Positions 124 through 54,005 of a DNA stretch of 64,000 nucleotides are shown piece by piece. The DNA comes from Rufibacter immobilis. GTDB taxonomy: Bacteria; Bacteroidota; Bacteroidia; Cytophagales; Hymenobacteraceae. Location of the stretch: assembly GCF_003721565.1 (NCBI RefSeq), contig NZ_RJJE01000009.1:496001-560000 (forward strand), given 5' to 3'. The translations under genes and the position numbers were made by a program. Numbering within the stretch: the first letter of the stretch is position 1; every line of letters starts with the position of its first letter. The notes under the pieces were generated by a model. It saw only the letters and a program-made list of their open reading frames with translations. It had not been told where the DNA came from and ran no database searches.

Positions 124-164
124 CGCGTTTAGGGGCTGTTTTTCCAGAATTAGAGCAAAACCAG
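124..164 (+). repeat. CGTTTAG element, asymmetric form (copy 1)
   Basis: About 40 nt starting CGTTTAGGGGCTGTTTTTCC and ending in AGAGCAAAACCAG. The left half is shared with the palindromic copies of the family; the right half is the AGGCAAAACCAG-type tail seen in the other asymmetric copies. It lies downstream of the OmpA lipoprotein gene, beyond its terminator. Confidence 0.8.
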
Positions 165-194
165 CCTCAGTTTTCACAGCAGATTGAACATAAA

Positions 195-222
195 AAAAGG
201 CTAGCCTCACGGCTAGCCTTTT
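195..222 (-). terminator. Rho-independent terminator of the OmpA lipoprotein gene
   Basis: A perfect 12-bp stem (AAAAGGCTAGCC and its complement) with a TCAC loop. Read on the minus strand it is followed by a run of seven T, so it serves the leftward gene that ends at 249. Confidence 0.85.
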
Positions 223-248
223 GGTGGAGAGAAGCTACTCTCTAATGC

Positions 249-959
249 TTAAAGTTCACCACGCTCAGCGGCTTTCTTCAGTTCCTCGCTGGCGAAGATG
301 GCTACCTCTACCCGGCGGTTCTGCTGACGTCCGGCGGCAGTGGAGTTGTCGGCCACCGGCTGGGTAGAACCGTAACCACGGGTCTGGATGCGGTTAGGCT
401 CTACTCCTAAAGAGATGGCGTAATTGGCCACAGACTGGGCTCTGCGCTCAGAAAGGGGCTGGTTGATGGCGTCGTTACCGGTGTTATCGGCGTGGCCTTC
501 CACCAGCACGTTGGTACCGGGGTATTTCTTCAGCGTCTCGGCCAGTTTCTGGATATCTGCTCTGGAAGAAGCCTGCAAATCTGCGGAGTTGGTGGCAAAC
601 AGAAGACCGGCGTCAAAAGTTACTTTGATCCCCTCGCCCACGCGCTCCACCTGGGCGTTCTTCATTTCACGCTCCAGCTCAGCGGCCTGCTTGTCCATCC
701 GGCGACCGATCACCGCACCGGTGGCGCCTCCCACGGCTGCTCCAATGATAGCGCCGCGGGCAGTGTTACCAGTGGCTTTGCCAATGATACCGCCTAAAAC
801 CGCTCCACCGCCAGCTCCGAAGATACCGCCTTTGGCTGTTTTGCTCATTCCTTTTTTCTGGGTTGTATCGCTAGTGCTGGCCGTCTGGCTTGATTGGCAG
901 GAAGAGAAAAGCAAGCTTCCGGCTAACATGGCTGTCAATGTTCCTTTTAGAAATTTCAT
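249..959 (-). CDS. OmpA-family lipoprotein with glycine-zipper segment
   Basis: A 236-residue outer-membrane lipoprotein that probably tethers the outer membrane to peptidoglycan. The signal peptide ends in a lipobox with Cys21 (LFSSC). Residues about 43-84 are a glycine-rich, alternating GxxxG stretch of the glycine-zipper type, likely membrane-embedded. Residues about 110-225 form the OmpA peptidoglycan-binding domain, with VEGHADNTG, LSERRAQSV and the closing NRRVEV motif. This order (lipobox, glycine zipper, OmpA domain) is that of the YiaD-like family. It stands alone between two terminators and is transcribed leftward. The product class is sure; the specific role is inferred from the family. 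Confidence 0.9.
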   Translation of the reverse strand: MKFLKGTLTAMLAGSLLFSSCQSSQTASTSDTTQKKGMSKTAKGGIFGAGGGAVLGGIIGKATGNTARGAIIGAAVGGATGAVIGRRMDKQAAELEREMKNAQVERVGEGIKVTFDAGLLFATNSADLQASSRADIQKLAETLKKYPGTNVLVEGHADNTGNDAINQPLSERRAQSVANYAISLGVEPNRIQTRGYGSTQPVADNSTAAGRQQNRRVEVAIFASEELKKAAERGEL

Positions 960-1093
960 AGTTGTGTTTTTTGGTTAAAGTGTGCTTAAAAGGTTTAGTA
1001 ATTGGGGTTACATACTGATTTATACGCAAAATGTTCAGACATAGTCCTCAATCTATATTTACTGCAATAATAATCGTGCCAGAACAAAATTTA

Positions 1094-1124
1094 AAAGACC
1101 TGCTCTGGGTGAGAACAGGTCTTT
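1094..1124 (-). terminator. Rho-independent terminator of accD
   Basis: AAAGACCTG and CAGGTCTTT form a stem around a 13-nt loop. On the minus strand it runs into TTTTAAATTTT. It sits about 50 nt past the accD stop codon. Confidence 0.75.
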
Positions 1125-1175
1125 AACGGTTATTTCGCGCTACTTATCAATAGCTATAGGTTGGTTTCCTAAGCA

Positions 1176-2042
1176 CTAGGCATTAGCAACGGTTACCTCT
1201 GGGCGCAGCAGGTTGAGCAAATCTGCCAAACGCTGCTTCAGCTCTTTACGGTGCACAATGAAATCAAGGAAGCCGTGCTCCAGCACGAACTCGGCGCTCT
1301 GGAAGCCTTTGGGCAGGTCTTTGCCAATGGTTTCTTTGATCACGCGCGGTCCGGCAAAGCCGATGAGCGCCCCCGGTTCAGAAATATTAAAATCGCCCAG
1401 CATGGCGAAGGAAGCGGTCACGCCTCCGGTGGTTGGGTCTGTGAGCAAAGAGATGTACGGGATTTTCTCCTCGGCCAGCAGGGCCAGCTTGGCAGAGGTT
1501 TTGGCCATCTGCATTAGAGAGTAACCGGCTTCCATCATGCGCGCTCCCCCAGATTTGGAGATCATCAGGAACGGGATTTTGTGGGCGCGGCTGTAGTCAA
1601 TGGCACGGGCAATCTTCTCGCCTACCACAGAACCCATAGAACCGCCAATGAAGTTGAAGTCCATACAGGCCACTACCAGATCTACCCCGTTCATGGTGCC
1701 GTGGGCGGTGCGTACGGCGTCTTTCAGGTTGGTTTTGCGCTGCGTGGCTACAATACGGTCTGGGTACGGTTTGGTATCCACGAAGTGGAGCGGATCTGAA
1801 GACGAGAGGTTCTCATCCAGTTCCTGGAATTGGTTTCCGTCAAACAAGATCTCAAAGTACTCATGAGAGTTGATGCGGTCATGGTGGTCGCATTTAGGGC
1901 AGGTGTACAGCTGTTGCCGGTGTTCTGCCGTGCTAATGACGGTTTTACACTCCGGGCACTTGTGCCACAGGCCGTCTGGGGTTTCTTTTTTCTGCTCCGT
2001 TGGGGTGACGATCCCTTTTTCTACTCTTTTAAACCAAGCCAT
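1176..2042 (-). CDS. accD: Acetyl-CoA carboxylase carboxyltransferase subunit beta
   Basis: Carries out the carboxyltransferase half-reaction of acetyl-CoA carboxylase with AccA, making malonyl-CoA for fatty acid synthesis in the cytosol. The 288-residue length is normal for the family. An N-terminal zinc ribbon is visible with Cys29, Cys32, Cys48 and Cys51 (KCPEC and TCPKC). The crotonase-like core follows, with the [11 protein letters not shown] and SGGARMMEA segments typical of AccD. It is monocistronic here and has its own terminator. The neighbouring upstream gap to 2552 is shared with a divergently transcribed OmpA-domain gene. Confidence 0.97.
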
Positions 2043-2288: not shown

Positions 2289-2328
2289 CGTTTAGCGCCT
2301 GTTTTTGAAAAAAGAGCCCCTAAACGCA
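2289..2328. repeat. CGTTTAG element, near-palindromic form (copy 2)
   Basis: CGTTTAGCGCCTGTTTTT is followed after a short turn by AAAAAAGAGCCCCTAAACG. The arms pair with a few mismatches. This copy lies between divergent genes, so it cannot act as a simple 3'-end terminator for either. Confidence 0.8.
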
Positions 2329-2517: not shown

Positions 2518-2551
2518 CCTCTACAAACAATAAAAAACAAATAAGCCACCT

Positions 2552-3350: not shown

Positions 3351-3390
3351 CGTTTTTAGCCTTATTTTGCGAAAAAGCTTCCTAAACAGA
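3351..3390 (-). repeat. CGTTTAG element, asymmetric form, minus orientation (copy 3)
   Basis: Read on the minus strand it begins CTGTTTAGGAAGCTTTTTC and ends AATAAGGCTAAAAACG, the same layout as the other asymmetric copies. It directly follows the terminator of the gene ending at 3262. Confidence 0.65.
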
Positions 3391-4571: not shown

Positions 4572-4608
4572 CGTTTAGCGGCCGTTTTTTCAAAAACTGA
4601 GTAAAACC
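4572..4608 (+). repeat. CGTTTAG element, asymmetric form (copy 4)
   Basis: CGTTTAGCGGCCGTTTTTTC followed by the GAGTAAAACC tail. The end of the tail is shared with the left arm of the adjoining terminator. It lies about 30 nt after the stop codon of the OmpA gene. Confidence 0.8.
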
Positions 4609-6126: not shown

Positions 6127-6198
6127 GCCTAACGCAGCACTTCCGTTTAGGGGCCGTTTTTGGAAAAACGACCCCTAAACGGAAGTGCTGCGTTAGGC
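6127..6198. repeat. CGTTTAG element, palindromic form with 17-bp private arms (copy 5)
   Basis: Two 35-nt arms with one mismatch around a 2-nt turn. The inner 18 nt of each arm are the family core; the outer 17 nt (GCCTAACGCAGCACTTC and complement) are found in no other copy here. It lies between two rightward genes. Confidence 0.92.
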
Positions 6199-7347: not shown

Positions 7348-7413
7348 CAACCCATAAAATGCGTTTAGGGGCTCTTTTTCTAAAAAGAGCCCCTAAACGC
7401 ATTTTATGGGTTG
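7348..7413. repeat. CGTTTAG element, perfect palindrome with 13-bp private arms (copy 6)
   Basis: Two perfectly complementary 32-nt arms around CT. The outer 13 nt (CAACCCATAAAAT and complement) are specific to this copy. It sits between convergent genes and could end transcription from both sides. Confidence 0.95.
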
Positions 7414-21280: not shown

Positions 21281-21351
21281 CGTTTAGAGGCTCTTTTTGG
21301 TAAAATCGGCCCTAAACGCCGGCAGCTTGAGTGGGTATTTAGGGCCGATTT
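21281..21351. repeat. CGTTTAG element, diverged, with a second hairpin (copy 7)
   Basis: CGTTTAGAGGCTCTTTTTGG is followed by a decayed right arm ending CCCTAAACGCC. That right arm (AAATCGGCCCTAAA, 21303-21316) also pairs perfectly with TTTAGGGCCGATTT at 21338-21351, giving an alternative hairpin. It lies between convergent genes and may terminate both. Confidence 0.75.
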
Positions 21352-21911: not shown

Positions 21912-21949
21912 CGTTTAGGGGCTCTTTTTCTGAAATCCAGGCAAAACCA
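21912..21949 (+). repeat. CGTTTAG element, asymmetric form (copy 8)
   Basis: CGTTTAGGGGCTCTTTTTC, then TGAAATCCAGGCAAAACCAA. The tail ends 6 nt from the stop codon of the leftward gene at 21956, so on that transcript the element starts right after the stop. Confidence 0.88.
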
Positions 21950-22778: not shown

Positions 22779-22817
22779 CGTTTTGGAGGAGTTTTTGGAA
22801 AAAGAGCCGCTAAACGG
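22779..22817 (-). repeat. CGTTTAG element, asymmetric form, minus orientation (copy 9)
   Basis: On the minus strand CCGTTTAGCGGCTCTTTTTC is followed by a diverged tail ending CCAAAACGC. Confidence 0.7.
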
Positions 22818-23263: not shown

Positions 23264-23299
23264 TGTTTAGGGCCTCTTTTTCCCAAATTAAGCCAAAAC
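23264..23299 (+). repeat. CGTTTAG element, asymmetric form (copy 10)
   Basis: TGTTTAGGGCCTCTTTTTCC, then AAATTAAGCCAAAACT, 4 nt after the GC-rich repeat. Confidence 0.8.
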
Positions 23300-23350
23300 T
23301 ATACTCTAGACTCAGGACTTGCTTTAACCTTCGACCGCTTGCACCAACGT

Positions 23351-23390
23351 GCGTTTAGCGGCTCTTTTTCCGGAATACAGAAAAAACCAG
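23351..23390 (+). repeat. CGTTTAG element, asymmetric form (copy 11)
   Basis: GCGTTTAGCGGCTCTTTTTC, then a GGAATACAGAAAAAACCAG tail of the family type. Confidence 0.88.
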
Positions 23391-23439
23391 ACTACCCGCC
23401 GTTCTAGGTGTAGCCGCAGCATATAAGGCAATTGCCAAA

Positions 23440-23483
23440 TTGCGTTTAGGGGCTGTTTCCCGAAAAACAGCCCCTAAACGCAA
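23440..23483. repeat. CGTTTAG element, palindromic form (copy 12)
   Basis: TTGCGTTTAGGGGCTGTTT pairs with AAACAGCCCCTAAACGCAA around a short turn. It lies downstream of the leftward trans-sulfuration gene and may terminate it. Confidence 0.9.
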
Positions 23484-26815: not shown

Positions 26816-26857
26816 TGTGTTTAGGGCCCTTTTTCTGAAAAACAGCCCCTAAACACA
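26816..26857. repeat. CGTTTAG element, palindromic form (copy 13)
   Basis: TGTGTTTAGGGCCCTTTTT pairs with AAAAACAGCCCCTAAACACA apart from one or two positions. It separates the esterase and xylanase genes, both rightward. Confidence 0.88.
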
Positions 26858-30028: not shown

Positions 30029-30066
30029 CGTTTAGGGCCTGTTTTTCTGAAAACGGCCTTAAAACA
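30029..30066. repeat. CGTTTAG element, decayed palindromic form (copy 14)
   Basis: CGTTTAGGGCCTGTTTTTCT is followed by GAAAACGGCCTTAAAACA. It follows the GH97 stop codon by 18 nt. Confidence 0.75.
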
Positions 30067-30139
30067 GACTAGGTTTGGGGTAAGTTTTAAATTACTGTGA
30101 GGCAGTATTCCAAACTTTGGAGAGACATTATTTGATTGA

Positions 30140-31009
<870 letters not shown>

Positions 31010-31162
31010 CAAAACCGGTTAAAAAGGAAGGTAGCAGCCCCTATTATAACGAATGCCAGAGCAACAGAATAGCGGCTGGATTTAGTAAAAACGAAGAAGC
31101 GTCTGCACCCAACGGGGTAAGCTACTGGCTGCTCTATCTTCTTAAAAGAGAACGTGGATTTT

Positions 31163-32740
31163 ATGATGAAGAACCTTTCCCAACTAGGTTTCCTTGCCCT
31201 GGTTTATCTCTGCCTGGCGTTGCCTGCAGTCGGCCAAGGGGCCAAGAACCCCATCATTCACGCCGATGTGCCTGACATCGCCATCATACGGGTTGGTGAC
31301 ACCTATTACATGAGCAGCACCACCATGCACATGAGCCCGGGCGTGCCCATCATGAAGTCAAAAGACCTGGTAAACTGGAAGCTGGTTAACTACGCCTATG
31401 ACACGCTGGCAAATGTAGATGAATTAACGTTCACCAACGGGAAAAGCACCTACGGAAGAGGCTCATGGGCCAGCAGCCTGAGGCACCACAACGGCACTTT
31501 CTACGTGACCACCTTTGCACAAACCACTGGCAAAACGCATGTGTACACCACCAAAGACATTGAGAAAGGCCCCTGGAAAGCAATTTCCTTTCCTCCTTCC
31601 TACCATGACCATACCTTGTTCTTTGAGGAAGACGGACGGGTGTACCTGATTTACGGTGCCGGCAAGTTGAGAATGGTGGAATTACAAACAGACCTTTCCG
31701 GCCCAAAGCCAGGCACGGACCGGGTGCTGATTGAGAACGCGAGTGCGCCTGCCGGGTCTACTATCAACCTGCAAGCCGAGGGTTCCCAGCTTTTCAAGGT
31801 GAACGGCAAGTATTACCTCTTCAACATCACATGGCCCAAAGACGGCATGCGGACGGTGGTTGTGAACCGCGCAGACAAAATCACGGGTCCCTATGAAGGC
31901 CGCTTGGCTTTGCAGGACAAAGGCGTGGCGCAGGGCGGCTTGATTGACACTCCCAATGGTGACTGGTACGCCTACCTGTTCCGGGACTATGGCGCGGTTG
32001 GGCGCATCCCATACCTGGTGCCGGTGAAATGGGAAGACGGCTGGCCCGTTTTAGGGATTGACGGTAAAGTGCCCGATAAGCTGAACCTGCCCGCCAGCAA
32101 AGGCCTCATGCCGGGTATTGTGGCGTCAGATGAGTTCACCCGCAAGAAGGGCGAGGCGGCCTTGCCTTTGGTGTGGCAGTGGAACCATAATCCAGATAAC
32201 CAACTCTGGTCTGTGACGGAACGGAAAGGCTTCCTGCGGCTGACCACCGGCAGAGTGGATACATCCTTCCTGCTGGCTCGGAACACGCTTACCCAACGCA
32301 CCATCGGGCCGGAGAGCGCCGGCGCCACGCTCCTGGATGTGTCCAGGATGAAGGACGGTGATTTTGCCGGCCTGGCCTTGTTGCAGCAACGGTATGGTTT
32401 AGTGGGGGTGAAATTTGAAAACGGGGCCAAATTCATTGTCATGGTCAATGCTCAATCCGGAAGACCGGAGGAAGTGGGGCGCATTCCTCTGCAACAAAAC
32501 AATGTGTATTTAAAGGCGGAATGTGATTTCAAGGAGCGGAAAGACGAGGCGAATTTCTTCTACAGCTTGGACGGAAAGACTTGGAAGAAAATCGGCTCAC
32601 CGCTGAAAATGGTTTATACCCTCCCGCACTTTATGGGCTACCGTTTCGGGTTGTTCAACTACGCCACCAAAACGCCGGGCGGTCAGGTAGATTTCGATTA
32701 CTTCCGGATAGAGGACCGAATCACCGCCCCGGGTAATTAA
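31163..32740 (+). CDS. GH43 beta-xylosidase-like enzyme with C-terminal concanavalin-type domain
   Basis: An exported enzyme of about 525 residues (the ATG pair at 31163/31166 is preferred over GTG at 31154). The five-bladed propeller shows the first catalytic Asp in [19 protein letters not shown] and [21 protein letters not shown], with the acid Glu in [18 protein letters not shown]. From about residue 330 a beta-sandwich follows ([13 protein letters not shown] and [13 protein letters not shown]), as in xylosidases with the C-terminal concanavalin-A-like domain. It is 18 nt from the next GH43, so both are in one unit. Likely acts on xylo-oligosaccharides. Confidence 0.91.
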
Positions 32741-32757
32741 TTTTTCAAGCTGATAAT

Positions 32758-34131
32758 ATGAAAATATTCAACCGCATGGTCAAGTTTACAGGTTGCTTTC
32801 TTCTGCTGATGTGGTTTGCATCTTCAGAAATGCAGGCACAAAACCCAATTGTCCAGACCGCCTACACCGCTGACCCGGCACCTATGGTGTATAAAGATAA
32901 ACTGTACCTGTATACCAGCCACGATGAAGACGAGTCTACCTGGTTTACCATGAATGACTGGAAGTTGTATACCACTGAGGACATGGTGAACTGGACTGAT
33001 CACGGCACCATTCTGTCCTACTCAGATTTCAGTTGGGCCAAAATAAATGCGTGGGCCCCGCAATGCATTGAGCGGGGAGGTAAATTCTACATGTATGTTC
33101 CCGTCACCACCAAGGATAACAAAGGAGCCATTGGGGTAGCGGTTGCCAACAGTCCGTACGGGCCGTTTACAGATCCTTTGGACAAGCCCTTGGTCCAAAG
33201 CGGTGTGGGTGACATTGACCCTAATGTGTTCATAGATGACGATGGGCAGGCCTATCTGTACTGGGGCAACCCTAACTGCTACTACGTCAAACTGAACGAG
33301 GACATGATTTCTTACCAGGGAGAAGTCGTGAAGGTGCCCAACACGGTAGAATCGTTTGGCAAGCGCGAAGGCAACCCAGAGAGGCCCACCACCTACGAGG
33401 AAGGCCCCTGGCTCTACAAACGCAAAGGATTGTATTATCTGCTATTCGCCGCAGGCCCCATTCCAGAGCACATTGGCTATTCCACCAGTTCCAGCCCTAC
33501 CGGCCCCTGGAAATACCAGGGTGTGTTAATGCCAACCGAAGGCGGCAGTTTTACCAATCACCCGGGCATCATTGACTTCAAAGGGAAGACTTATTTCTTC
33601 TATCACAACGGAGCCTTGCCGGGCGGCGGCGGTTTTACCCGCTCCGTTGCGGTGGAAGAAGTGGCCTTCAAAAAAGACGGCACCATACAACCCCTGAAAA
33701 TGACGAAGGGCATTACCAAAGGTCTAGCCCCAATAAATCCATTTGTGAAGAACGAGGCAGAGACCATGGCCTGGTCTGAAGGGGTGAAATCTGGGCAGAA
33801 TGAAAAGGTTGGCGTATTCGTGACAGCCCAGCGGAATGGGGCTTACACCAAAGTAAAAGACGTGGACTTCAGGAAAACCGGAGCCTCCAAATTGACGGCC
33901 CGGCTTGGTACCACCCACAATGGCAATGTGACCATGGAAATCAGGTTGGGAAGTGTGGAAGGCGAGTTGATAGGTACCTTGAACGTGCCGCTCACCGGCG
34001 GGAATGACAGATGGGCTTTGGTATCAACCGATGTTAAAAAAGTCACCGGCGTCCACGATGTCTATTTTGTCTTCAAAGGAAAAGCAGCCAGCAACATCCT
34101 GTTTTTCGACTACTGGAGATTTTCAGAATAA
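32758..34131 (+). CDS. GH43 arabinofuranosidase-like enzyme with CBM6-type domain
   Basis: A 457-residue exported enzyme (signal peptide to EMQAQ, about 28). [19 protein letters not shown] holds the catalytic base Asp, [20 protein letters not shown] the pKa-modulating Asp, and [18 protein letters not shown] the acid Glu, all with GH43 spacing. Residues about 330-457 form a CBM6-like sandwich (KNEAETMAW at its start, FFDYWRF at its end), which would bind xylan. This combination is common among arabinofuranosidases that debranch arabinoxylan. Exact linkage specificity is not resolvable. Confidence 0.91.
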
Positions 34132-34227
34132 TCATTATTGAACAGGGCATCTAAATAAACTCCCAGCGCTTCTGATTCAGGAGAAGTAGCGGGACTCAAA
34201 CAGCAAATAAACAGCTAATATTTTAAG

Positions 34228-35988
34228 ATGAAGAAATCAAAATTTGGATTTGCTCCCTGGAGAAACAGGCGGGCGGCAGTACTCAGCGTTTTTATGGCCT
34301 TTTTTTCATTTTTGACTCTAACTGGAAACAGCCAGAATTTGAAAAAAGGTGCTAAAAACGCGCCAGTGTTTTCCAATTCTGTCTATGAAGGAAGCGACAA
34401 GGTGTACAAAGACCATCCGTTAAAGGAGGGTGAATTCTATAATCCCATTTTGCAGGGGGCCTATCCAGATCCCGCTATCACCCGCAAAGGCAATGATTAC
34501 TACCTGGTAGCTTCCACTTTCGCTATTTTCCCTGGGGTACCTGTTTTCCATTCTAAAGATTTGGTGAACTGGACGCAGATTGGGCACGCGTTAGAACGCG
34601 TTTCGCAGCTGGATGTGCATGACACGCCTATCAGCGCCGGTGTGTATGCCCCAGACATAGAGTACAATCCCAACAATGACACGTTCTACATGATTGTGAC
34701 GGCCTTTGCCGGAGGAGCAGGGAACATTGTGGTGAAATCCAAGGACCCGGCCAAAGGCTGGAGTGAGCCCTACAAGCTGAATTTCAGCGGAATAGATCCT
34801 TCTATGTTCTTTGATGATAACGGGAAAGCCTATGTGGTCCACAACGATGCCCCAGACAAAGGCAAAGAACTGTACGAAGGGCACCGCGTGATCAAGGTAT
34901 GGGAATATGATCTTGCCAAGGACCAGGTCATTGCCGGAACCGACAAGATTATAGTAAACGGCGGAGTGGACCTCGCGAAAAAACCTATCTGGATTGAAGC
35001 CCCCCATATCTACAAGAAAAACGGACGCTATTACCTGATGTGTGCCGAGGGTGGCACGGGTGGAAATCACAGCGAAGTAGTGTTCGTAAGCGATTCTCCT
35101 ATGGGGCCCTTTACTCCGGCTCCTAATAACCCTATCCTGTCGCAAAGAAGTTTGAACCCCAACCGGGCAAACAAAGTAGACTGGGCCGGCCACGCCGATT
35201 TAGTGCTAGGTCCTGATAACAAATACTATGGCGTGTTCCTAGCCATCCGTCCAAATGAAAATAACAGGGTAAACATTGGGCGTGAGACTTTTATCTTGCC
35301 GGTTGATTGGTCTGGTGAGTTTCCTATTTTCATTAATGGACTAGTGCCTATGGAGCCGAAGCTGCAAATGCCCAAAGGTGTGGTAAACAAAACCGGGAAA
35401 GACGGCTTCTTCCCCAATGGCAACTTCACCTTCAGGGATAACTTTACTTCTAAAAAGCTTGACTACCGGTGGGTAGGGTTAAGAGGCCCGCGTGAGGCGT
35501 TTATTTCTACAACCAAGAAAGGTTTACAGATTAATCCGTTTCCGGCAAACATCAAGGAGCTTAAGCCTACTTCAACGCTCTTCCTCCGTCAGCAGCACAA
35601 CAGTTTCTCTTATACCACCACGCTTGATTACAAGCCGGCATCAGAAAAGGATTTGGCGGGTATTACGTTAGTACAAAGCGAGAAATTCAACTACGTTTTT
35701 GGCCTAACCCTAAAAGGCAAAGATGCCTATCTGGTGCTGGAAAAGACCGAGAAAGGAGCCTCCAAAGTGATCGCCAGCCAAAAGGTAGAGGTTAAGAAGC
35801 CAATTCAACTTCGGGTTAAGGCCGAAGGAGATGCCTACCAGTTTAGCTATTCAACAAACGGGAAAGACTTTGTAGATCTGGGCGGTCCTGTTTCGGGAGA
35901 TATTCTCTCCACCAACGTAGCAGGAGGTTTCACGGGCACCTTAATTGGGCTGTACGCCACTTCGGCAAACGATGCGTTGCCCCAATAA
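34228..35988 (+). CDS. GH43 xylosidase/arabinofuranosidase with beta-sandwich domain
   Basis: A 586-residue exported enzyme. The N-terminus is a signal peptide ending near NSQ at about residue 36. FYNPILQGAYPDPAITRKGNDYYLV holds the catalytic base Asp in pieces, FSGIDPSMFFDDNGKAYVV the second Asp, and KPIWIEAPHIYKKNGRYYLM the acid Glu. From about residue 400 a concanavalin-like domain follows (FTFRDNFTSKKLDYRWVG). It is a second, longer xylosidase-type GH43 and is not a close copy of the one at 31163. It forms part of the rightward xylan cluster, 96 nt after the CBM6-bearing gene. Confidence 0.91.
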   Translation: MKKSKFGFAPWRNRRAAVLSVFMAFFSFLTLTGNSQNLKKGAKNAPVFSNSVYEGSDKVYKDHPLKEGEFYNPILQGAYPDPAITRKGNDYYLVASTFAIFPGVPVFHSKDLVNWTQIGHALERVSQLDVHDTPISAGVYAPDIEYNPNNDTFYMIVTAFAGGAGNIVVKSKDPAKGWSEPYKLNFSGIDPSMFFDDNGKAYVVHNDAPDKGKELYEGHRVIKVWEYDLAKDQVIAGTDKIIVNGGVDLAKKPIWIEAPHIYKKNGRYYLMCAEGGTGGNHSEVVFVSDSPMGPFTPAPNNPILSQRSLNPNRANKVDWAGHADLVLGPDNKYYGVFLAIRPNENNRVNIGRETFILPVDWSGEFPIFINGLVPMEPKLQMPKGVVNKTGKDGFFPNGNFTFRDNFTSKKLDYRWVGLRGPREAFISTTKKGLQINPFPANIKELKPTSTLFLRQQHNSFSYTTTLDYKPASEKDLAGITLVQSEKFNYVFGLTLKGKDAYLVLEKTEKGASKVIASQKVEVKKPIQLRVKAEGDAYQFSYSTNGKDFVDLGGPVSGDILSTNVAGGFTGTLIGLYATSANDALPQ

Positions 35989-36138
35989 AGCTCCTAACTG
36001 GCTCCTATAACCACTTCCACGGTGATAAGGCTCTTGGCAATTGTCAGCTGTCAGGAATATAGGCGGAACTCCTTTGTTCGCATATCAGAAATTGCATAAA
36101 TGTATTAAATAGTTAACCCTTACCTATCCATCATTTAT

Positions 36139-37089
36139 ATGACTTATATACCAATCAACGTAGCTAAAGCCTGGCTTTTTGCCTGCTTCCTTATTTTTGC
36201 TGCCCCAGTACTGGCACAAGATGGCACCATCTATCCGCTCAAAGCCCCAGCCGAGCCCAAAGCCATTCCTCTTGGTACGGGCGGGGTAGATGGCCAGAAG
36301 GCCCCGGAAACCTGGTTCCGACAGTGGGGTGATCCTATGGCCCGAAATATCTCTTCTGCAACCCTCACCCCTTTTTTGCCTGCCCCGGGTAAGGCGAATG
36401 GCACTGCCGTGATTGTGGCGCCGGGTGGCGGATTCCGGTGGCTCTCCATGGACAACGAGGGCTGGGAGGTTGCGAAGGCCCTTGCAGACCAGGGCATCGC
36501 CGCTTTTGTGTTAAAGTACCGCCTCCATCCCACCCCGGAGTCACTTGACGACTTCAAGGCATGGATGGAGCAACCCCGGACTTCCCCAGCTGCCTCGTCC
36601 AACACAACGCAAAGCACCACTCCGCCCCGACCGCCTCAATTGGATCTTTCAAACCAGTTGGAGGATGCAGAGGCTGCTTATGCCCTGATCCTTAAGAGAG
36701 CGAAGGAATGGGGAGTAGATACGGGCAGAATAGGCATGATTGGTTTCTCGGCTGGAGCAGGCCTGACCATGCATGCAACCCTCAACTCCAAGACTATGAA
36801 ACTGGCTTTTATTGGACCTATCTATGGAGGTATGGGCCCGGTGGAAGTACCGAAGAACGCCCCACCCATGTTCAACGTCATCGCCACCGATGACTTTCTC
36901 TTCCGTGGTCAGTTTGGAGTGATTGATTCCTGGTATAAGGCGGGTATCCCGGTGGAGTTTCATCTCTACCAGAACGGCGGCCACGGTTTCGGCCTCGGCA
37001 ACCCTGACAGAACCAGCAACCGTTGGTTTGATGCTTTCATGCACTGGTTGAACGTGAACAAATTTGTCACCCCCAAGTCTGGCAAGTAG
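36139..37089 (+). CDS. Exported alpha/beta hydrolase, probable xylan esterase
   Basis: A 316-residue alpha/beta hydrolase with signal peptide (to VLAQ at about 27). VIVAPGGGFRWLS is the oxyanion segment, GMIGFSAGAGLTMH holds the nucleophile serine, and NGGHGFGLG the catalytic His. An insert of about 30 residues rich in Pro, Ser and Thr (near residue 145-170) is low-complexity, perhaps a lid or linker. It ends the xylan cluster and is followed by a 20-bp-stem terminator. Resembles acetylxylan-esterase-type BD-FAE/dienelactone-hydrolase-like enzymes; substrate inferred from context. Confidence 0.84.
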   Translation: MTYIPINVAKAWLFACFLIFAAPVLAQDGTIYPLKAPAEPKAIPLGTGGVDGQKAPETWFRQWGDPMARNISSATLTPFLPAPGKANGTAVIVAPGGGFRWLSMDNEGWEVAKALADQGIAAFVLKYRLHPTPESLDDFKAWMEQPRTSPAASSNTTQSTTPPRPPQLDLSNQLEDAEAAYALILKRAKEWGVDTGRIGMIGFSAGAGLTMHATLNSKTMKLAFIGPIYGGMGPVEVPKNAPPMFNVIATDDFLFRGQFGVIDSWYKAGIPVEFHLYQNGGHGFGLGNPDRTSNRWFDAFMHWLNVNKFVTPKSGK

Positions 37090-37153
37090 CTAGAGGGTAT
37101 CTGATTTAAAAGTACAACTTTGAGTGAACGGAAAATCAGTTCATTGATTTTAA

Positions 37154-37197
37154 AAAGTAAGAAGGGCTATTCTCTTAAGAATAGCCCTTCTTACTTT
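37154..37197. terminator. Strong terminator at the end of the xylan cluster
   Basis: A perfect 20-bp stem (left arm AAAGTAAGAAGGGCTATTCT) with a CTTA loop. A- and T-rich flanks on both sides would let it work in both directions. Confidence 0.9.
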
Positions 37198-37434
37198 AAC
37201 GCTCAGGTTTTAGTTTAGATCAAACGAATCTACCGTTTGATGAACCAAGAATGGGGTTCTTCTTGAATACTTGATCTTATAATAGATAAATATATTCATG
37301 AAATACCGTTGTTGCCGGTGCTTTTGGCAATCAGAGACGATATCAGTTTAAGCATCCCCTTTAATCAAGGAGTAAATAAATAGCGTTGCTTCTGTTCAGG
37401 ATTGGCAGGGATGCACCTATTGGCTTTAAAAACA

Positions 37435-37467
37435 AAAACGGCTTCTACATGTTGTAGAAGCCGTTTT
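37435..37467 (-). terminator. Terminator of tRNA-Arg
   Basis: AAAACGGCTTCTAC and GTAGAAGCCGTTTT form a 14-bp perfect stem. On the minus strand it directly follows the tRNA 3' end and runs into GTTTTTG. Confidence 0.85.
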
Positions 37468-37470
37468 GTG

Positions 37471-37544
37471 TGGTCGCGTAGGGAGTCGAACCCCAAACCT
37501 TCTGATTCGTAGTCAGATGCTCTATCCAGTTGAGCTACGTGACC
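37471..37544 (-). tRNA. tRNA-Arg (anticodon ACG)
   Basis: On the minus strand a 74-nt cloverleaf is seen: acceptor GGTCACG / CGCGACC, D stem GCTC/GAGC, anticodon stem TCTGA/TCAGA around CTACGAA (anticodon ACG, read as ICG after deamination), and T stem TGGGG/CCCTA around TTCGACT. Acceptor pair 5:68 is an A-C mismatch. The 3' CCA is not encoded. Confidence 0.95.
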
Positions 37545-37563
37545 GTTGTTTGATTTAGTGTTG

Positions 37564-37594
37564 CAAAGGTAGATACTTCATTCTTTATACGCAA
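37564..37594 (-). promoter_or_regulatory. Promoter of tRNA-Arg
   Basis: On the minus strand TTG (37592-37594), 20 nt, then TACCTTTG (37564-37571). This matches the Bacteroidota -33/-7 pattern and lies 19 nt before the tRNA. Confidence 0.8.
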
Positions 37595-37773
37595 GTACCT
37601 CTGCAAAGATTTTTAACAAAAAAGCACACACCAACTCTTACCACCTTAACATCAGGTAGTTAATTTTACACTTTGTGCGTCACCACACACGGCATCCTCT
37701 ATATAATACATCGATCTGCTTCATTTTTTAGCTGGATCTGGATGTGATTCTCAACTTGCCTCACTTCTAAAAC

Positions 37774-38500
37774 TTTTTTGGCAGTGGTTTACAATGTATG
37801 ATGCTTTGTTTTTTGGTTGTTCCGATAGTTGAACATTAGGATCGAGCTCGCATCATGGATTTCCTTCTTATTGGAGAAGCAGGTTGTTTTCCTGACCAGC
37901 CTCCTGTTCCTGGCTCTCAAATAGGTATTTACTCCCTCTATATCTTTTGCATAAGCCTTGCACACCCTGTGCCTCCCTGCTGGTATCATCTGGGCGAAGG
38001 CTTCCCAATGGTCGGCGCAGTACTCTCCGATTTCCACTCCCTCCAGCTTTCTGAGCAGTAGGCATACAAAAGCCAGTACTTCCCTTTCCTGCGCCTGCCC
38101 AAGAAGCTCCAGACCTCGTCTATCTGCACCGAATTGTAGTACCGCCGCGCTGGTGCTATGCTAAGTTAGCCACCTTGCCGGCACAAGTTGTCCTGCTGCA
38201 CTTCCTGCTTACCCCCAGCGGCGTCTCGATGTCCCTGACGCCGTTGTTCCGCCCCAAAAGCCGCAATATAAGCTGCTTGGTGGCCGGGTTTAGCGCCTCT
38301 GTACTGGTAAGTGGCCTGGAACTGCTTCCTGCAGCAGTGGAATAGCAGGCTCTGAGCACCGTTCCTTCCCGTCTTTTACTACCTTACTGCTCTGGCAGTG
38401 GGGACAGTTTATTTTGATGAGGACTTCGAACATTCCATCATCTTGAACACTCTGCTGCCAACTTTTATCCCATCATACTTTCTAAACCACTACCAAAAAA
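37774..38500 (-). mobile_element. Decayed IS1-family insertion sequence
   Basis: About 727 bp bounded by inverted repeats TTTTTTGGCAGTGGTTTA (37774-37791) and TAAACCACTACCAAAAAA (38483-38500), matching at 17 of 18 positions. Inside is a frameshifted IS1 transposase. Size and ends fit IS1-family elements. I find no clear target duplication. The right end lies one base from the stop codon of the acyltransferase gene. Confidence 0.88.
37789..38433 (-). pseudogene. IS1-family transposase, multiply frameshifted
   Basis: Reading leftward from the ATG at 38433, the InsA-like zinc motif NCPHCQSSKVVKDGK is seen, then frame changes to FQATYQYRG, then to PATKQLILRLLGRNNGVRDI, VQIDEVWSFLG and finally the long C-terminal frame with IEGVNTYLRARNRRLVRKTT up to 37789. 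These are successive blocks of one IS1-type (InsAB') transposase in different frames, so at least three frameshifts have accumulated, more than the single programmed shift of the family. The gene is dead. Confidence 0.88.
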
Positions 38501-38501
38501 T

Positions 38502-40406
38502 TTAATAAAAAAATTCTTGAGCGACAGTATTCTGCATAATTTTTTCTACCAATAGGTCAGCTCCATATTTGGTCACATGGTCTTCATCATACATATATGG
38601 TACCCCAGCAGATGATAGGGGTGGAAAGTGCGTAGTATTGATGACTTTTACGTAGTTTGGGCCAATGTTCTTACTCAGGTACTCATCCACTTGAAAAGGA
38701 TATTTATCTAAATAGTTAGGAGCTTGCTGAGTACCTTGCTCAAAATCCCTAGCAGCTATCATAGTATATGGCATTCTATAACTCTCCGTTTGCCCAATTA
38801 TGATATATTTCACCTCGTATTGCTTTAAGTATTCCATTATCTCCTCCAGCCCAAGTAATAAATTATTAGGATTAGTTTTGCTATTCCTAGCCCAATGAGC
38901 TGAAACAATTACACCGTCTATTTTTTTTGCGTTTTTTGGAATGAAATCAAGAAATGTATAATCCATCAGTTTCCTGAGCTCTATTTTTTTACCCTCATAA
39001 GACTTCAGGGTAGGCAAAGTAGCTGAAGCTGTGGCTTGCATCAGATTGATATTATCATCTGCCAGCTCCTCCTTTAGGGACTGAGACAGCTGAGCCATGT
39101 GGCTATCGCCAATCATCAAAATGTTCTTCTTCCCTTCTACTAGACAAAGGCATTGATCTTTATTGAAGTCTTCTATCTTAGAGATGTGGCATTCTTCTCT
39201 GTTAAATTGTTTTATCTGTTCCTTCTTATGTGTCTTCTTGTAATTTTGGATTGCTAATGTTGTATCCTTGAACAGGAAATGGTTTGTATCCATATAACTA
39301 AGGAAGGCCGTAGCAACAAACAGAGATACCCCACCTACAGCAATGGTTCCACTGCTTCTGAAGTTGCCACTCTCTATATATAAATAAGAAAGATATCCCA
39401 TTACGAAGGATGTCAGCGTGAAGAGCAATACCGCGCCCATATTTATCCCTACCCCATAGTATTGTCCAACCACATAGATAGGCCAATGCCACAGGTAAAG
39501 AGAATAAGATATCTTCCCTATAAATTGTATACTATAATGGTTTACAGCCTTGAAACCATCGTGGTTAGCGACAATTACCAAAAAAGTGGCAACAACTGGA
39601 ATAGCAGTATATGGTCCTGGCCACGGAAGTGCTTCGTCTAGAAACAGAAAACAACCAAGTATGGCGCCGTAGCCTAACGCGGCTAAAACTTTCCGTACTC
39701 TTTCATTTGAGATGAGTCCTTCAGAAAAAAAGGCGATCCCGCCGAAAAGCATTTCCCAAGCTCTGGTAGGCAACAGATAGAAAGAGGCAGTTGGATCTAT
39801 CACAGTAAAGATCATAGATCCAACTACGAGCACAAAAGTCATACTTACAAAATGAAAAACATATATCTTCTTGTTCACTATCCTGTTAAGCAAAACTAAG
39901 AAGAGAGGGTAAAGAAGGTAAAACTGCCACTCAACAGAAAGAGACCAAGTATGGAGAAAAATATTAGTATCTGAGGATGGGTCAAAATAACCTGAATTTT
40001 GCCAATAAAGAATATTAGACAAAAAAAGAACACTAGCTGCGGCATTTTTTTGATTTAACTTGAAGTCTTCTGGAAAATACAAGAAAAAACCAACCAAAGA
40101 AACGGTTAACACAAGCGACAGCAGCGCAGGGACAATTCTTTTTATCCTTTTACTTAGGTAGTCCCAATAGGAGAACTCCCCTCGTTTGATGGCACTAACT
40201 ACAATTTTACTCATCAGATACCCAGAGATTACGAAGAAAACATCTACTCCGGCAAATCCTCCCTTTAGCCATCCTACTTTGAAGTGAAAGAAGAGTACTC
40301 CACTAATAGCCAAAGCTCTCAAGGCATTGATATCTGACCTAAACTTTGAAGAAGGTTTCTTAATGTGCGGGTGGTTATTTAACCTAGTAGAATTTTTTGC
40401 AATCAT
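38502..40406 (-). CDS. Acyltransferase-3 family protein with C-terminal SGNH domain (OafA/YrhL-like)
   Basis: A 634-residue inner membrane protein that transfers acyl groups onto a surface polysaccharide, lipid or peptidoglycan sugar. Start taken at the ATG at 40406; the codon before it is GTG. FRSDINALRALAISGVLFFHF and FAGVDVFFVISGYLMS are the acyltransferase-3 motifs with the catalytic His. About ten membrane helices follow to about residue 375. The C-terminal periplasmic SGNH domain has ILMIGDSHMAQ (nucleophile Ser) and a late DEDHVTKYG (Asp/His). The gene is clearly AT-richer than its surroundings, suggesting transfer. An IS1 relic abuts its stop codon. The acceptor is unknown. Confidence 0.92.
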   Translation of the reverse strand: MIAKNSTRLNNHPHIKKPSSKFRSDINALRALAISGVLFFHFKVGWLKGGFAGVDVFFVISGYLMSKIVVSAIKRGEFSYWDYLSKRIKRIVPALLSLVLTVSLVGFFLYFPEDFKLNQKNAAASVLFLSNILYWQNSGYFDPSSDTNIFLHTWSLSVEWQFYLLYPLFLVLLNRIVNKKIYVFHFVSMTFVLVVGSMIFTVIDPTASFYLLPTRAWEMLFGGIAFFSEGLISNERVRKVLAALGYGAILGCFLFLDEALPWPGPYTAIPVVATFLVIVANHDGFKAVNHYSIQFIGKISYSLYLWHWPIYVVGQYYGVGINMGAVLLFTLTSFVMGYLSYLYIESGNFRSSGTIAVGGVSLFVATAFLSYMDTNHFLFKDTTLAIQNYKKTHKKEQIKQFNREECHISKIEDFNKDQCLCLVEGKKNILMIGDSHMAQLSQSLKEELADDNINLMQATASATLPTLKSYEGKKIELRKLMDYTFLDFIPKNAKKIDGVIVSAHWARNSKTNPNNLLLGLEEIMEYLKQYEVKYIIIGQTESYRMPYTMIAARDFEQGTQQAPNYLDKYPFQVDEYLSKNIGPNYVKVINTTHFPPLSSAGVPYMYDEDHVTKYGADLLVEKIMQNTVAQEFFY

Positions 40407-41653
40407 CACTATAGCAATCCTGAAAACTCTCGCAATATATAATAATTATATAAATATTTAAACAAAAGCTACTCTAGCAAACACACCCTAATAACAATGA
40501 AATAATACAATCCCTCAACAAACAGACACTCCACTTGAAAGCTCCTATAGTTAAAGTTAAACCAAATAATGAACCTCTTTAAGCAGATAACTCCACACTT
40601 TGGATCATAAACAGCTTTGTGCTCGGCTGCATATTGTTCACCACATCAAAACTTATTTTAAGGTCAACTTTTCTTTTCTGAAACAGGAATCGATAAGTAT
40701 TGCCTTAATTTTCCTCACACCTTAGCAGATCTTAGTACTTAGCAATGAGAATTTAAATGTTATTTTTTTGTAAAGCCCTGAAATTACCTTAAAACAACTC
40801 ATAAAGCCTTTCGATATTAAACCATCAGATTTCACTCCTATATACTTTATTTATCTACCTATTTAAAAAGTCATAATACTTATTTTATAATTCAACTAAT
40901 AAATACAATAAAAATCGTATTTATCCCCGCATAGCTCACTATCTAGTTTGTTGAACCGGCACTCATTGTAAATGCACCAACTGCAAGCCAAGCATATTTT
41001 CCTATAAAGGAAACTGATCAAATCTCTAACCCCTTCAACCGTCAATTATACCGCTTCTGTGACAGATATTTTCTTAAAAAGGATTGAATGGAACAAGCAT
41101 TTAAAAAAGACTTATCATAGAAAATTAACCCAGTTAGACAATTAGAAATTAGCGAGCAATAAAACTGGATGACTTGAGAACCTAAAAACAAATCTGAGGA
41201 GAGGATCTAATTCTGGCTTCGTTCTCTAAAACTTTTCTAATTTCTACTTATCGATAGAGAAATTTCCTGCTTATGTATATTTTGTATCATCATCAATATA
41301 CCTTTCTCCAACATACAGGTTTTTGGAGAACTGATGATGCATTTAATTATTCACGAAAGTATATCTCACCTTTATGAAGTACTTGCTGAATGTAGAAGTA
41401 AAATAACTCAGACTTTTCTCAAGCAGTAAGCTGAACACCACTATTATAACCGATAGCTGTGGCTGGAGTTTCTGCTATTTCTCATACCTGAAGCACATAA
41501 CTCGCTGATGTTGGGGATAGCTCTATTCTCTTTCATTCTTCTTCTCGCATGTATGGCAGAGGGAAGAACGGCATGAGAACTGAAATATGTTTAGGGGCTG
41601 ATTTTTCAAAAAGTTGCCCCAAACAAGAAATTACATCAAATTGATAGAACAGT
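40407..41653. other. AT-rich intergenic region, 1.25 kb
   Basis: No credible gene on either strand and no tRNA. The DNA is strongly AT-rich with many short stops. The only structured item is a CGTTTAG element at 41588-41625. The region probably contains the promoter of the acyltransferase gene and remnants of lost genes, but I cannot identify any. Confidence 0.6.
41588..41625. repeat. CGTTTAG element, decayed palindromic form (copy 15)
   Basis: TGTTTAGGGGCTGATTTTTC is followed by AAAAAGTTGCCCCAAACA. It lies about 30 nt before the remnant start codon of the VOC pseudogene. Confidence 0.75.
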
Positions 41654-42002: not shown

Positions 42003-42039
42003 TGTTTAGGGGCTACTTTTCCAAGAATAGCCCTAAACA
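42003..42039. repeat. CGTTTAG element, palindromic form with mismatches (copy 16)
   Basis: TGTTTAGGGGCTACTTTTCC and AAGAATAGCCCTAAACA. It lies between the VOC pseudogene and the small gene at 42075. Confidence 0.78.
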
Positions 42040-42440: not shown

Positions 42441-42492
42441 CAAATTGCGTTTAGGGGCTATTTTTGAAAAAATAGCCCCTAAACGCAATTTG
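42441..42492. repeat. CGTTTAG element, perfect palindrome (copy 17)
   Basis: Two perfect 25-nt arms around GA; the outer CAAATTG and its complement are copy-specific. It lies between convergent genes, 6 nt before the histidine kinase stop codon. Confidence 0.95.
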
Positions 42493-45438: not shown

Positions 45439-45478
45439 GCGTTTAGGAAGCGTTTTTCAGAAAACAGCCCCTAAACGG
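45439..45478. repeat. CGTTTAG element, near-palindromic form (copy 18)
   Basis: GCGTTTAGGAAGCGTTTTTC and AGAAAACAGCCCCTAAACGG, pairing with several mismatches in the left arm. Confidence 0.82.
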
Positions 45479-45580: not shown

Positions 45581-45620
45581 CGTTTAGCGGCTCTTTTTTC
45601 AAAAAGAAGACAAAACCAGA
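45581..45620 (+). repeat. CGTTTAG element, asymmetric form (copy 19)
   Basis: CGTTTAGCGGCTCTTTTTTC, then AAAAAGAAGACAAAACCAGA. As at copy 8, exactly 6 nt separate the tail from the stop codon of the leftward gene, here at 45627. Confidence 0.88.
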
Positions 45621-50560: not shown

Positions 50561-50600
50561 GCGTTTAGGAGCCGTTTTTCCAAAAAGAGCCCCTAGACGC
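50561..50600. repeat. CGTTTAG element, palindromic form inside the pst operon (copy 20)
   Basis: GCGTTTAGGAGCCGTTTTTC and CAAAAAGAGCCCCTAGACGC. It begins 4 nt after the pstA stop, between co-directional operon genes. Confidence 0.9.
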
Positions 50601-51388: not shown

Positions 51389-51392
51389 TTCC

Positions 51393-51440
51393 GTTGGCGT
51401 TTAGGGGCTCTTTTTGGAAAAACAGCCCCTAAACGCCAAC
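51393..51440. repeat. CGTTTAG element, palindromic form inside the pst operon (copy 21)
   Basis: Two 23-nt arms with one mismatch around GG; the outer GTTG and its complement are copy-specific. It begins 5 nt after the pstB stop. Confidence 0.93.
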
Positions 51441-52205: not shown

Positions 52206-52232
52206 GCCCGCTTACTTTCCTGTACATCTTCC

Positions 52233-52260
52233 AAAGCCTGAGAATGCCTTCTCAGGCTTT
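52233..52260 (+). terminator. Rho-independent terminator of the phosphate operon
   Basis: AAAGCCTGAGAA, loop TGCC, TTCTCAGGCTTT: a perfect 12-bp stem followed by GCTTTTTC. Confidence 0.9.
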
Positions 52261-52300
52261 GCTTTTTCTCAGCATTGCCTCCTACCCTACTTATGGTTCG

Positions 52301-52340
52301 CGTTTAGGGGGCCTTTTTCCAAAATCAGGCTAAAACCAGA
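52301..52340 (+). repeat. CGTTTAG element, asymmetric form (copy 22)
   Basis: CGTTTAGGGGGCCTTTTTCC, then AAAATCAGGCTAAAACCAGA. A clear example of the asymmetric tail. Confidence 0.9.
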
Positions 52341-52614
52341 GGGGCGGGGTGGGCAAGGCTACAAGTGCCCGCAAACGGAAGAACACTCCTAAAGTTTATG
52401 GGCCTGTGCCCCGCATTTCTTCTCTGGCAAAGTGATTTGCCCTCTAGCTATAAAAACAGAAAGGACGTCTCTCCCCCTTGAGACGCCCCTCTGCTTCATC
52501 TGCCCCATATACTTTAGCGACAGACGTATGACTATAACATGATTTTATCTAATTATTTCTAAATACAAAGCAAAGCTATTACAAATAGAACTATACAACT
52601 ATATTATATTCTAT

Positions 52615-52794
52615 TTACACGTAGCCCAGCTGCTTGCGGTACAATGCCTTCAAAGCAATAAGACGGGCCATAGATAAAATGGCAAGCTGCTCGCCTGTCA
52701 TGAATCCGCTTGCATCTATCTTTAAAGCGTCTTCCTGTTGCAAAACATCTGCCTCAACGCCTTGTACTAGTTCGGTATTTTCCTGGTATAGCAT
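52615..52794 (-). CDS. Small protein of unknown function (59 residues)
   Basis: A short leftward frame from the ATG at 52794 to TAA at 52615. It reads MLYQENTELVQGVEADVLQQ at the start and ends in MARLIALKALYRKQLGYV. The composition is natural and amphipathic: an acidic N-terminal half and a basic C-terminal helix (GEQLAILSMARLIALKALYRK). No signal peptide or known motif. The opposite strand also has an open frame here (52634-52915), but it is rich in Ser, Cys and Ile with no supporting features, as expected of a shadow. Function unknown. Confidence 0.5.
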   Translation of the reverse strand: MLYQENTELVQGVEADVLQQEDALKIDASGFMTGEQLAILSMARLIALKALYRKQLGYV

Positions 52795-53001
52795 AGCTTC
52801 TTGTATTAGATTTCTGATTCAAAACTACACACAATTGTTATCCGCAATTGGGATTTTAGCCATATCCCCTTCTTCACCCGCTGAATCTACCCAAATGCCT
52901 GACGAATTAATTTAGTACAATTAAACAAGCACCTAGAGGCTCTATTCTTGCCTTCCTGTCTATTAAGTGTTAATTTTGAGGTGTCTCAAGTCTTCTTCCC
53001 A

Positions 53002-53964
53002 ATGCCTTTACTTCTCAGTCCAGATTACAAGCCGCCGCGTTACATGATGAATGGTCACTTTCAGACCATTCTCCCTAGCACCTTGAGGCGCCCACCGGCG
53101 TTGAGCTATAAAAGAGAGCGCATCCAGACCCCAGACAAAGATTTCCTGGATGTAGACTGGTCGGTGGTGGGCTCTAAGACGCTGGTGGTACTTTCCCATG
53201 GGTTGGAGGGCGACACAAACCGTCCCTATATGACGGGCATGGTCCATGCCATGAACAAAGCCGGCTGGGATGCCCTTGCCTGGAACTTCAGAAGCTGTAG
53301 CGGCGAACCCAACCACCTGCTGCGCTCTTACCACATGGGGGCCGTGGAAGACTTGGACCTGGTGGTGCGCCACGCCCTGCAAACCGGTAAATATGAGACC
53401 GTTTATCTGGTAGGCTTTAGTATGGGCGGCAACCTCACCTTAAATTATCTGGCCCAGTGGGCCGATAAAGTGCGCGCGCAAGTGGCCCGCGCCGCCGTTT
53501 TCTCCGTGCCCTGCCACATGAAAAGTGCCTGCACCCAATTGGCCAAACCCGCCAACCGCATCTACATGAAACGTTTCCTGAAATCGCTGCACCGGAAGCT
53601 CCTGGAAAAATCCCAGCGGTTTGAGGTGGACCTCACAGACTACCAGCAGATCACATCCTTTGAGCAGTTTGACGACCGCTACACGGCTCCCATGCACGGC
53701 TTCAAAAACGCCGATGACTACTATGAGCGCTGCAGCTCAGTCGGTCATCTGCACCGCATCCAGATTCCTACCCTGCTGGTGAATGCCCAAAATGACCCGT
53801 TCCTTTCCAAAGAGTGCTTTCCCGTGGAACAAGCTCGCCAAAACCCCAATTTTTACCTGGAGATGCCCCGGCAAGGCGGGCACGTGGGTTTCTCAGAAAA
53901 CTTCCGGAAAGGCCTTTATTATTCTGAGCGCCGGGCGGTGACTTTCCTGCGGGGACAAGGCTAA
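53002..53964 (+). CDS. YheT-family alpha/beta hydrolase
   Basis: A 320-residue hydrolase related to E. coli YheT and ABHD1/3-type proteins. The start is placed at the ATG at 53002; the longer frame would begin with TTG at 52948. KPPRYMMNGHFQTILPSTLRR is a family signature near the N-terminus (in pieces). VVLSHGLEGDTNRPYM forms the oxyanion hole, VYLVGFSMGGNLTLNY carries the nucleophile serine, and GGHVGFSE the catalytic His, with the Asp in NAQNDPFLS. Substrate unknown; esterase activity is a family inference. No signal peptide, so cytosolic. Confidence 0.9.
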   Translation: MPLLLSPDYKPPRYMMNGHFQTILPSTLRRPPALSYKRERIQTPDKDFLDVDWSVVGSKTLVVLSHGLEGDTNRPYMTGMVHAMNKAGWDALAWNFRSCSGEPNHLLRSYHMGAVEDLDLVVRHALQTGKYETVYLVGFSMGGNLTLNYLAQWADKVRAQVARAAVFSVPCHMKSACTQLAKPANRIYMKRFLKSLHRKLLEKSQRFEVDLTDYQQITSFEQFDDRYTAPMHGFKNADDYYERCSSVGHLHRIQIPTLLVNAQNDPFLSKECFPVEQARQNPNFYLEMPRQGGHVGFSENFRKGLYYSERRAVTFLRGQG

Positions 53965-53965
53965 C

Positions 53966-54005
53966 CTGTTTTAGCCTTATTTTCAGAAAAACGGCCCCTA
54001 AACGG
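53966..54005 (-). repeat. CGTTTAG element, asymmetric form, minus orientation (copy 23)
   Basis: On the minus strand CCGTTTAGGGGCCGTTTTTC is followed by TGAAAATAAGGCTAAAACAG. The tail starts 1 nt past the hydrolase stop codon, so the element forms the start of its 3' untranslated region. Confidence 0.88.

Follow-up and report, generated by a model that had tools for sequence, protein, structure and literature searches.

A genus-wide family of 36-bp two-armed elements with species dialects at gene ends in Rufibacter

A dispersed 36-bp element built of two inverted arms is found throughout the genus Rufibacter. Its copies share one architecture, lie at gene ends, keep their positions between species, are spelled differently from species to species, and have arms that vary almost independently of one another. 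Our best reading, tentative and given rather less than an even chance, is that the elements are sites of a putative DNA-binding protein at the ends of transcription units; they resemble REPs in form, but carry no GTAG tag and have no RAYT link. The genus-wide spread, the conserved positions, the species dialects and the near-independence of the arms are new here. The initial annotation of this DNA knew of no published description of the family, and the literature that we searched held none.

The usual explanations for dispersed palindromes in bacteria are mobile REPs and RNA hairpins. In the family described here, the positions look ancestral, pairing is not mainly what is kept, and the spelling appears to have changed genome-wide in place. 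Together, these features make it testable how a thousand sites could change jointly, and whether or not gene ends in Rufibacter are marked by a novel protein.

Anatomy of the element and its copies in the window

The window, a 64,000-nt stretch of the Rufibacter immobilis genome (G000; C1:496001-560000), contains 29 matches to CGTTTAGGGGCTSTTTTTC at up to three mismatches, versus a mean of 0.05 over 100 shuffles. When arm matches at up to two mismatches were combined with a dialect-free detector, the window proved to hold 23 elements of one 36-bp, two-armed type. This confirms the dispersed family of at least 22 copies that had been claimed; the nine asymmetric examples named in the initial annotation are all among the 23, the one at 3351 being weak. 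An Rfam scan of the window at the gathering score returned two tRNAs only, with no match to the element.

The unit runs from GTTT to AAAC over 36 bp, or 38 bp when the outer C/G is included. The palindromic form had been described as a core followed after 1-3 nt by its own complement; the form itself stands, and the gap is 2 nt in 283 of the 288 palindromic copies found in 1.26 Mb of C1. Of all 754 arms analyzed, 683 fitted best in the 36-nt register and 64 in the 35-nt one. Likewise, intergenic GTTT..AAAC pairs peak at a spacing of 36 nt (440 pairs), with 109 pairs at 35 nt and 9-67 pairs at each of the other spacings from 28 to 47 nt. The flanks TTSC and GSAA are conserved in part around palindromic copies, and the position profile of both forms ends in TTSC-CGTTT and AAAC-CAG/GSAA.

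Asymmetric copies that match CGTTTAGGGGCTSTTTTTC lie at 127..162 (plus strand, 8/16 positions paired), 21913..21948 (plus, 7/16), 22780..22815 (minus, 10/16), 30030..30065 (plus, 11/16), 45582..45617 (plus, 9/16) and 52302..52337 (plus, 7/16), and a further match at 41589..41624 (plus, 10/16) is asymmetric or degenerate. Two intermediate copies (21282..21317, plus, and 45441..45476, minus; both 12/16) and two palindromic ones with no strand assigned (2290..2325 and 26819..26854; both 13/16) match it as well. The copy at 3352..3387 (minus, 8/16), weak and asymmetric, was seen by the detector only. A terminator-like hairpin immediately follows the asymmetric copy at 4573..4608 (plus, 9/16), while the flanks of the unstranded palindromic copies at 6145..6180 (15/16) and, in a convergent gap, at 7363..7398 (16/16) lengthen the inverted repeat by 17 and 14 bp, respectively; at 42449..42484 (palindromic, unstranded, 16/16) the flank inverted repeat is short. 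The copy at 42004..42038 (plus) is one base shorter at its end and falls in the 35-nt register. Other copies sit close to genes: an asymmetric one at 53968..54003 (minus, 9/16) lies 3 bp off the called end of the preceding gene, one at 50563..50598 (unstranded, 12/16) stands between two phosphate-transport genes, 6 bp past the stop codon of the first, and a palindromic one at 51399..51434 (unstranded, 15/16) occupies the following gap of the phosphate-transport operon.

Two local features of the window concern the arrangement of copies. Three elements form a triplet at about 90-bp spacing (23265-23479), the first two asymmetric (23265..23300, plus, 9/16; 23353..23388, plus, 5/16) and the third palindromic (23444..23479, unstranded, 15/16); they are spaced 88 and 91 bp apart, and the spacers look unrelated by eye. 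The 11.5 kb from 30066 to 41588, which contain a GH43-CBM6 protein, carry no element; this stretch sits in a part without a syntenic gene pair in the relatives read and is perhaps a later acquisition.

The asymmetric form had been described as the same left half joined to a constant, non-complementary tail. The tail does in fact show complementarity: at least 8 of 16 positions are paired in 742 of the 754 arms, scored as the best of three registers, where random sequence scored in one register gave a mean of 4.0 and reached 8 in 3%. The claim of two alternative right halves holds insofar as there are two classes, marked by base 31: among rows from the 754 arms, 488 of 494 well-paired ones carry T there, and at least 179 of 208 poorly paired ones carry A. 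The two forms also differ in C/G preference at positions 6 and 11. However, the classes overlap, and the number of paired positions over the 754 arms (each palindrome counted twice) is widely spread, peaking near 9-10 and 13-16 with no more than a shallow dip in between. Among the 12 arms with fewer than 8 paired positions, most still have the asymmetric tail by eye, and no clearly lone arm was seen among the 754, except perhaps two. The second right-half class is spelled much like the elements of other Rufibacter species, and asymmetric copies may therefore be sites that are weaker or have been converted in part.

Spread through the genus and location at gene ends

The G000 genome (4.77 Mb) contains 2,542 arm matches at up to one mismatch (1,264 forward and 1,278 reverse), versus none for a reversed-pattern control. 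At up to two mismatches, a 1.26-Mb part of C1 yielded 288 palindromic and 267 single-arm elements, which extrapolates to about 2,100 elements per genome; Rufibacter copy number is of the order of a thousand or more per genome. A covariance-model scan of the genome and its relatives, as proposed in the initial annotation, found the family in 16 of 16 Rufibacter genomes, with at least about 150 candidates of model R1 in each. In a family-wide sample of 120 genomes, all 16 Rufibacter genomes reached 54-55 of the first 55 candidates scored, and 12 of the 104 non-Rufibacter genomes of the taxonomic family gave at least 1-6 hits among the first candidates scored. The dialect-free detector counted 17-50 elements per 100 kb in 13 Rufibacter relatives, from samples of 20-180 kb each (20 kb for five species), and 33 in G000; G007 and G015 were covered by the arm pattern and the model. 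Arms of the G000 type number 1-269 in the other 15 Rufibacter genomes and 0-7 in 43 non-Rufibacter genomes, the latter similar to their controls (0-11). In a pattern scan of named genomes, 13 of 18 stretches among the matches listed were from Rufibacter and five came singly from elsewhere.

The elements are intergenic and lie mostly at gene 3' ends. According to a simple homemade gene finder, 2 of the 288 palindromic and 14 of the 267 single-arm elements are inside genes, and 7 arms at up to one mismatch fall in called coding sequence versus 747 elsewhere. In the regions sampled, the dialect-free detector returned 2 elements in 291 kb of coding and 452 in 189 kb of intergenic DNA, and none after shuffling. 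Convergent gaps longer than 80 bp hold an element in 106 of 122 cases (84-91% by length class), while occupancy is 42-72% in tandem and 25-58% in divergent gaps.

Some palindromic copies look like the tips of intrinsic terminators. Of 260 palindromic copies in convergent or tandem gaps, 48 have flanks that lengthen the inverted repeat by at least 8 bp. The corresponding figures are 1 of 27 for divergent copies and 0 of 186 for asymmetric ones; the 27 tandem extended cases are T-rich on the sense side (4.6 of 10, versus 2.4 on the other side). Arm-to-arm copying was set aside as the source of these flank repeats, as the flanks have A/T tails like those of terminators and are biased towards T on the sense strand. 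A G+C stem followed by a sense-strand T tract is seen in a minority of elements with extended flanks. Some palindromic copies resemble intrinsic terminators in that they make up the top of a stem that carries a T-rich tail, but most copies lack the tail, independent terminators are also present, and it is mainly sequence, not pairing, that the element keeps. Gene ends that bear an element do not, as a rule, have fewer separate terminators: with and without an element, respectively, terminators were found in 26/93 and 2/39 tandem gaps of 250-600 bp, 16/119 and 6/65 of 120-250 bp, and 2/29 and 7/83 of 60-120 bp, and in 22/74 and 3/20 convergent gaps of 60-120 bp and 36/94 and 6/12 of 120-250 bp. 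Among 50 terminator stems placed relative to the element, 16 start 35-44 nt from its start, that is, just past it. The suggestion that the family is something other than plain terminators or decayed IS ends is supported, save that some palindromic copies tip terminator-like stems.

Conserved positions, species dialects and independent arms

We compared orthologous gaps in one chromosome region (40-80 kb per species). Element presence agreed in 86 of 102 comparisons, drawn from 35 G000 gaps and six species and not independent of one another; an element was present in both genomes in 39, in neither in 47, and in one only in 8 and 8, after exclusion of 4 of 106 syntenic pairs in which both gaps were shorter than 20 nt. 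Gap type partly explains this agreement, with 2 both and 20 neither among 23 divergent comparisons, 11 both among 12 convergent, and 26 both and 27 neither among 67 tandem ones. The distance to the flanking gene differed by a median of 6 bp in 26 single-copy pairs, versus 16.5 bp when permuted within gap type, and only 1 of 2,000 permutations was as low as the value observed. On these comparisons, element positions look ancestral.

Individual sites and one close pair of genomes gave the following picture. At 50563..50598, an element-like sequence is visible by eye in 8 of 8 readable relatives (a count that leaves out loci L124, L127 and L130), and the detector found it in 2 of 3; at 51399..51434, several relatives have an element, and G006 and G013 have none. 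G006 and G013 are about 80-87% identical over their main blocks. Across seven aligned blocks, each of 12 G006 elements matches a G013 element in register, G013 having 16 there; six further G006 elements lie outside the aligned blocks. At two sites where G006 seemed to have lost the element, a degraded copy is visible by eye. Palindromicity per site was not conserved between species (rho 0.15, n=26, p=0.46). Some species have extra local copies. In G012, the gap after a pstA-like gene (L128) contains a pair of elements 84 bp apart; the sequences that follow them are similar, apparently through local duplication.

At common sites, the spelling differs by species. At position 4, 62-85% of G000 arms carry A, but all arms of G012 (18), G013 (28) and G006 (12) carry T, as do 79% in G010 and 56% in G002; 72% of G012 arms carry A at position 12. 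Between G006 and G013, the 24 arms of the 12 aligned pairs agree at positions 4, 7 and 10 in 24, 22 and 22 cases, respectively; agreement is 47 of 96 at positions 8, 11, 12 and 17 and 266 of 403 in the flanks. The detector favors palindromes and builds in some conservation, which accounts in part for the higher values at positions 0-3 and 13-14.

Each arm varies almost independently of the other, and hence pairing is not the main thing conserved. In 283 two-armed G000 copies, the test being confined to copies whose arms both fit the motif, pairing was 0.64 versus 0.62 with shuffled arms at position 10 and 0.45 versus 0.46 at position 11; the exception was position 6 (0.76 versus 0.67, highest shuffle 0.71). 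Independence was similar in G012 (76 copies), G013 (68) and G005 (34), the exceptions being positions 5 and 11 in G012 and 4 in G005. Where G006 and G013 differ by a change in one arm, the pair is present in G013 alone in 18 cases and in G006 alone in 15. Covariation was present in a set of 50 sequences (19 of the 69 available were left out), but we rejected it as evidence of hairpin selection, since the detector asks for pairing and several dialects are mixed, and little covariation remains once arms are chosen separately. On the sense strand, G-U mismatches exceed A-C (169 versus 132), and in tandem gaps 89 single-arm elements run along the gene direction and 64 against it.

Candidate explanations

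We hypothesize that the element would be a fixed-length DNA site, in which a 2-bp centre separates two inverted half-sites of 17-18 bp, read at transcription-unit ends by a sequence-specific protein acting as a dimer or higher oligomer. Such a protein might serve as a nucleoid-associated, insulating or roadblock factor. A drift of its specificity within a lineage would have led to re-spelling of the sites in place, and the asymmetric form would combine one strong half-site with a weak, older-type one; where intrinsic termination is also needed, the site could form the tip of the terminator hairpin or stand just before the hairpin. In favor of such a site are the fixed length and copy number, the spread through the genus, the kept positions, the dialects at common sites, the constraint on sequence and the gene-end location. 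Near-independent arms are expected of two separately read half-sites rather than of a hairpin kept for pairing. Several observations count against a protein site: the covariation at position 6 in G000, 5 and 11 in G012 and 4 in G005, the excess of G-U over A-C, and palindromicity that is not conserved per site; the 89 to 64 orientation bias of single-arm elements speaks against a symmetric DNA site. Moreover, 36 bp is large for the site of a known bacterial regulator, re-spelling a thousand sites would be hard for site-by-site selection, the 3' location could be merely where insertions are tolerated, and the agreement in presence is in part a matter of gap type. Extending the protein-site reading, we suggest, more hesitantly, that most transcription-unit ends in Rufibacter are punctuated by at least a thousand ancient putative protein-binding sites whose whole set was re-spelled in place more than once during species divergence, a genome-wide, position-stable code with species dialects outside DNA uptake.

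Close behind, and possibly combinable with a protein site, comes an origin as REP-like, formerly mobile palindromes that spread in the Rufibacter ancestor by a lost or as yet unfound enzyme and were later homogenized by copying or conversion, which we consider possible but on balance unlikely. REPs are imperfect palindromes of 20-40 bp, extragenic and present in more than 100 copies, according to PMC3733652 and PMC8049555, and the element is likewise a short, extragenic, imperfect palindrome with more than 100 copies and a 3' bias. The comparison with REP/BIME families proposed in the initial annotation thus holds for form and copy number and fails for the GTAG tag and the RAYT link. The extra local copies in some species and the apparent duplication in G012 fit former mobility, and conversion would explain new spelling at old sites; on the other hand, positions are kept across species while the spelling shifts, and the arms are nearly independent. 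No consistent direct repeat borders the 283 palindromic copies examined, where only small excesses of 2-mers and of one 4-mer at one boundary were seen, so the target-site duplication of a MITE was not found either. The position profile of both forms has no conserved GTAG at the ends, and CGTC is absent in favor of CGTT (third base T in 99-100%). This separates the element from the CGTC REPs, which PMC3733652 describes as short extragenic palindromes that also occur in Bacteroidetes and lack a dedicated transposase, and which it otherwise resembles. Among the 12 least-paired arms, no two lie 0.3-4 kb apart, as would bound a parent element.

Nor was a link to the expected enzyme found. PF01797 occurs in 15 of 16 Rufibacter genomes; the search of G006 gave no hit, yet G006 carries elements. 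The only RAYT-like gene of G000 (L116:1432-1977; C1:452655-453200) is adjoined by TTCCGGATT hairpins, and this gene and the RAYT-like genes at L112 and L120 have TTCCGGATT or TTTCGGATT hairpins alongside, unlike the element studied here. On these grounds, with the gene resolved by a motif search in 5 of 12 loci, mobilization by RAYT was rejected. The link to a RAYT-like gene raised in the initial annotation is not supported, its interpretation overall being partly supported. In the five neighborhoods resolved, two elements flank the RAYT-like frame at L116, one 214 bp ahead of it and the other 263 bp beyond it, the nearest at L112 is 1238 bp away, and none is near the gene at L115, L117 or L120. 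The G000 gene carries the motifs NHLH, WQ and YIHQNP, resembling subclass 2.6 of PMC6006769.

Two further explanations fit less well than a protein site or a REP-like origin. That the element acts in 3' untranslated regions as an RNA hairpin, stabilizing, ending or trimming transcripts, appears improbable: such a hairpin would account for the 3' location, for the 48 of 260 convergent or tandem palindromic copies that run into terminator-like stems with a T-rich sense side, and for the excess of G-U over A-C, and covariation across dialects would favor it had the set not been chosen by a pairing-seeking detector, but arms vary almost independently within species and divergent gaps hold elements too. 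More improbable still is a DNA uptake signal of the DUS/USS kind, enriched by biased uptake and with dialects that track a receptor. Intragenic DUS are common, whereas the arms studied here are nearly absent from coding sequence (7 versus 747) and form a fixed 36-bp pair. The likeness lies in copy number, dialects and inverted pairs at terminators, as PMC3630211 reports for the DUS of Neisseriaceae, with thousands of copies.

Beyond Rufibacter, a different abundant dispersed element of about 29 nt, near AAAACGSTATSSTTTNAGGCNTRAAAACT, was observed in a sister genus (G016; L173-L176), with 61 matches at up to three mismatches in 80 kb; other genera of the taxonomic family may each have a dispersed element of their own. 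In G034 (L189-L190), GTTTATACTT-like 9-mers are enriched (39 versus 7 expected in 40 kb) and are possibly promoters.
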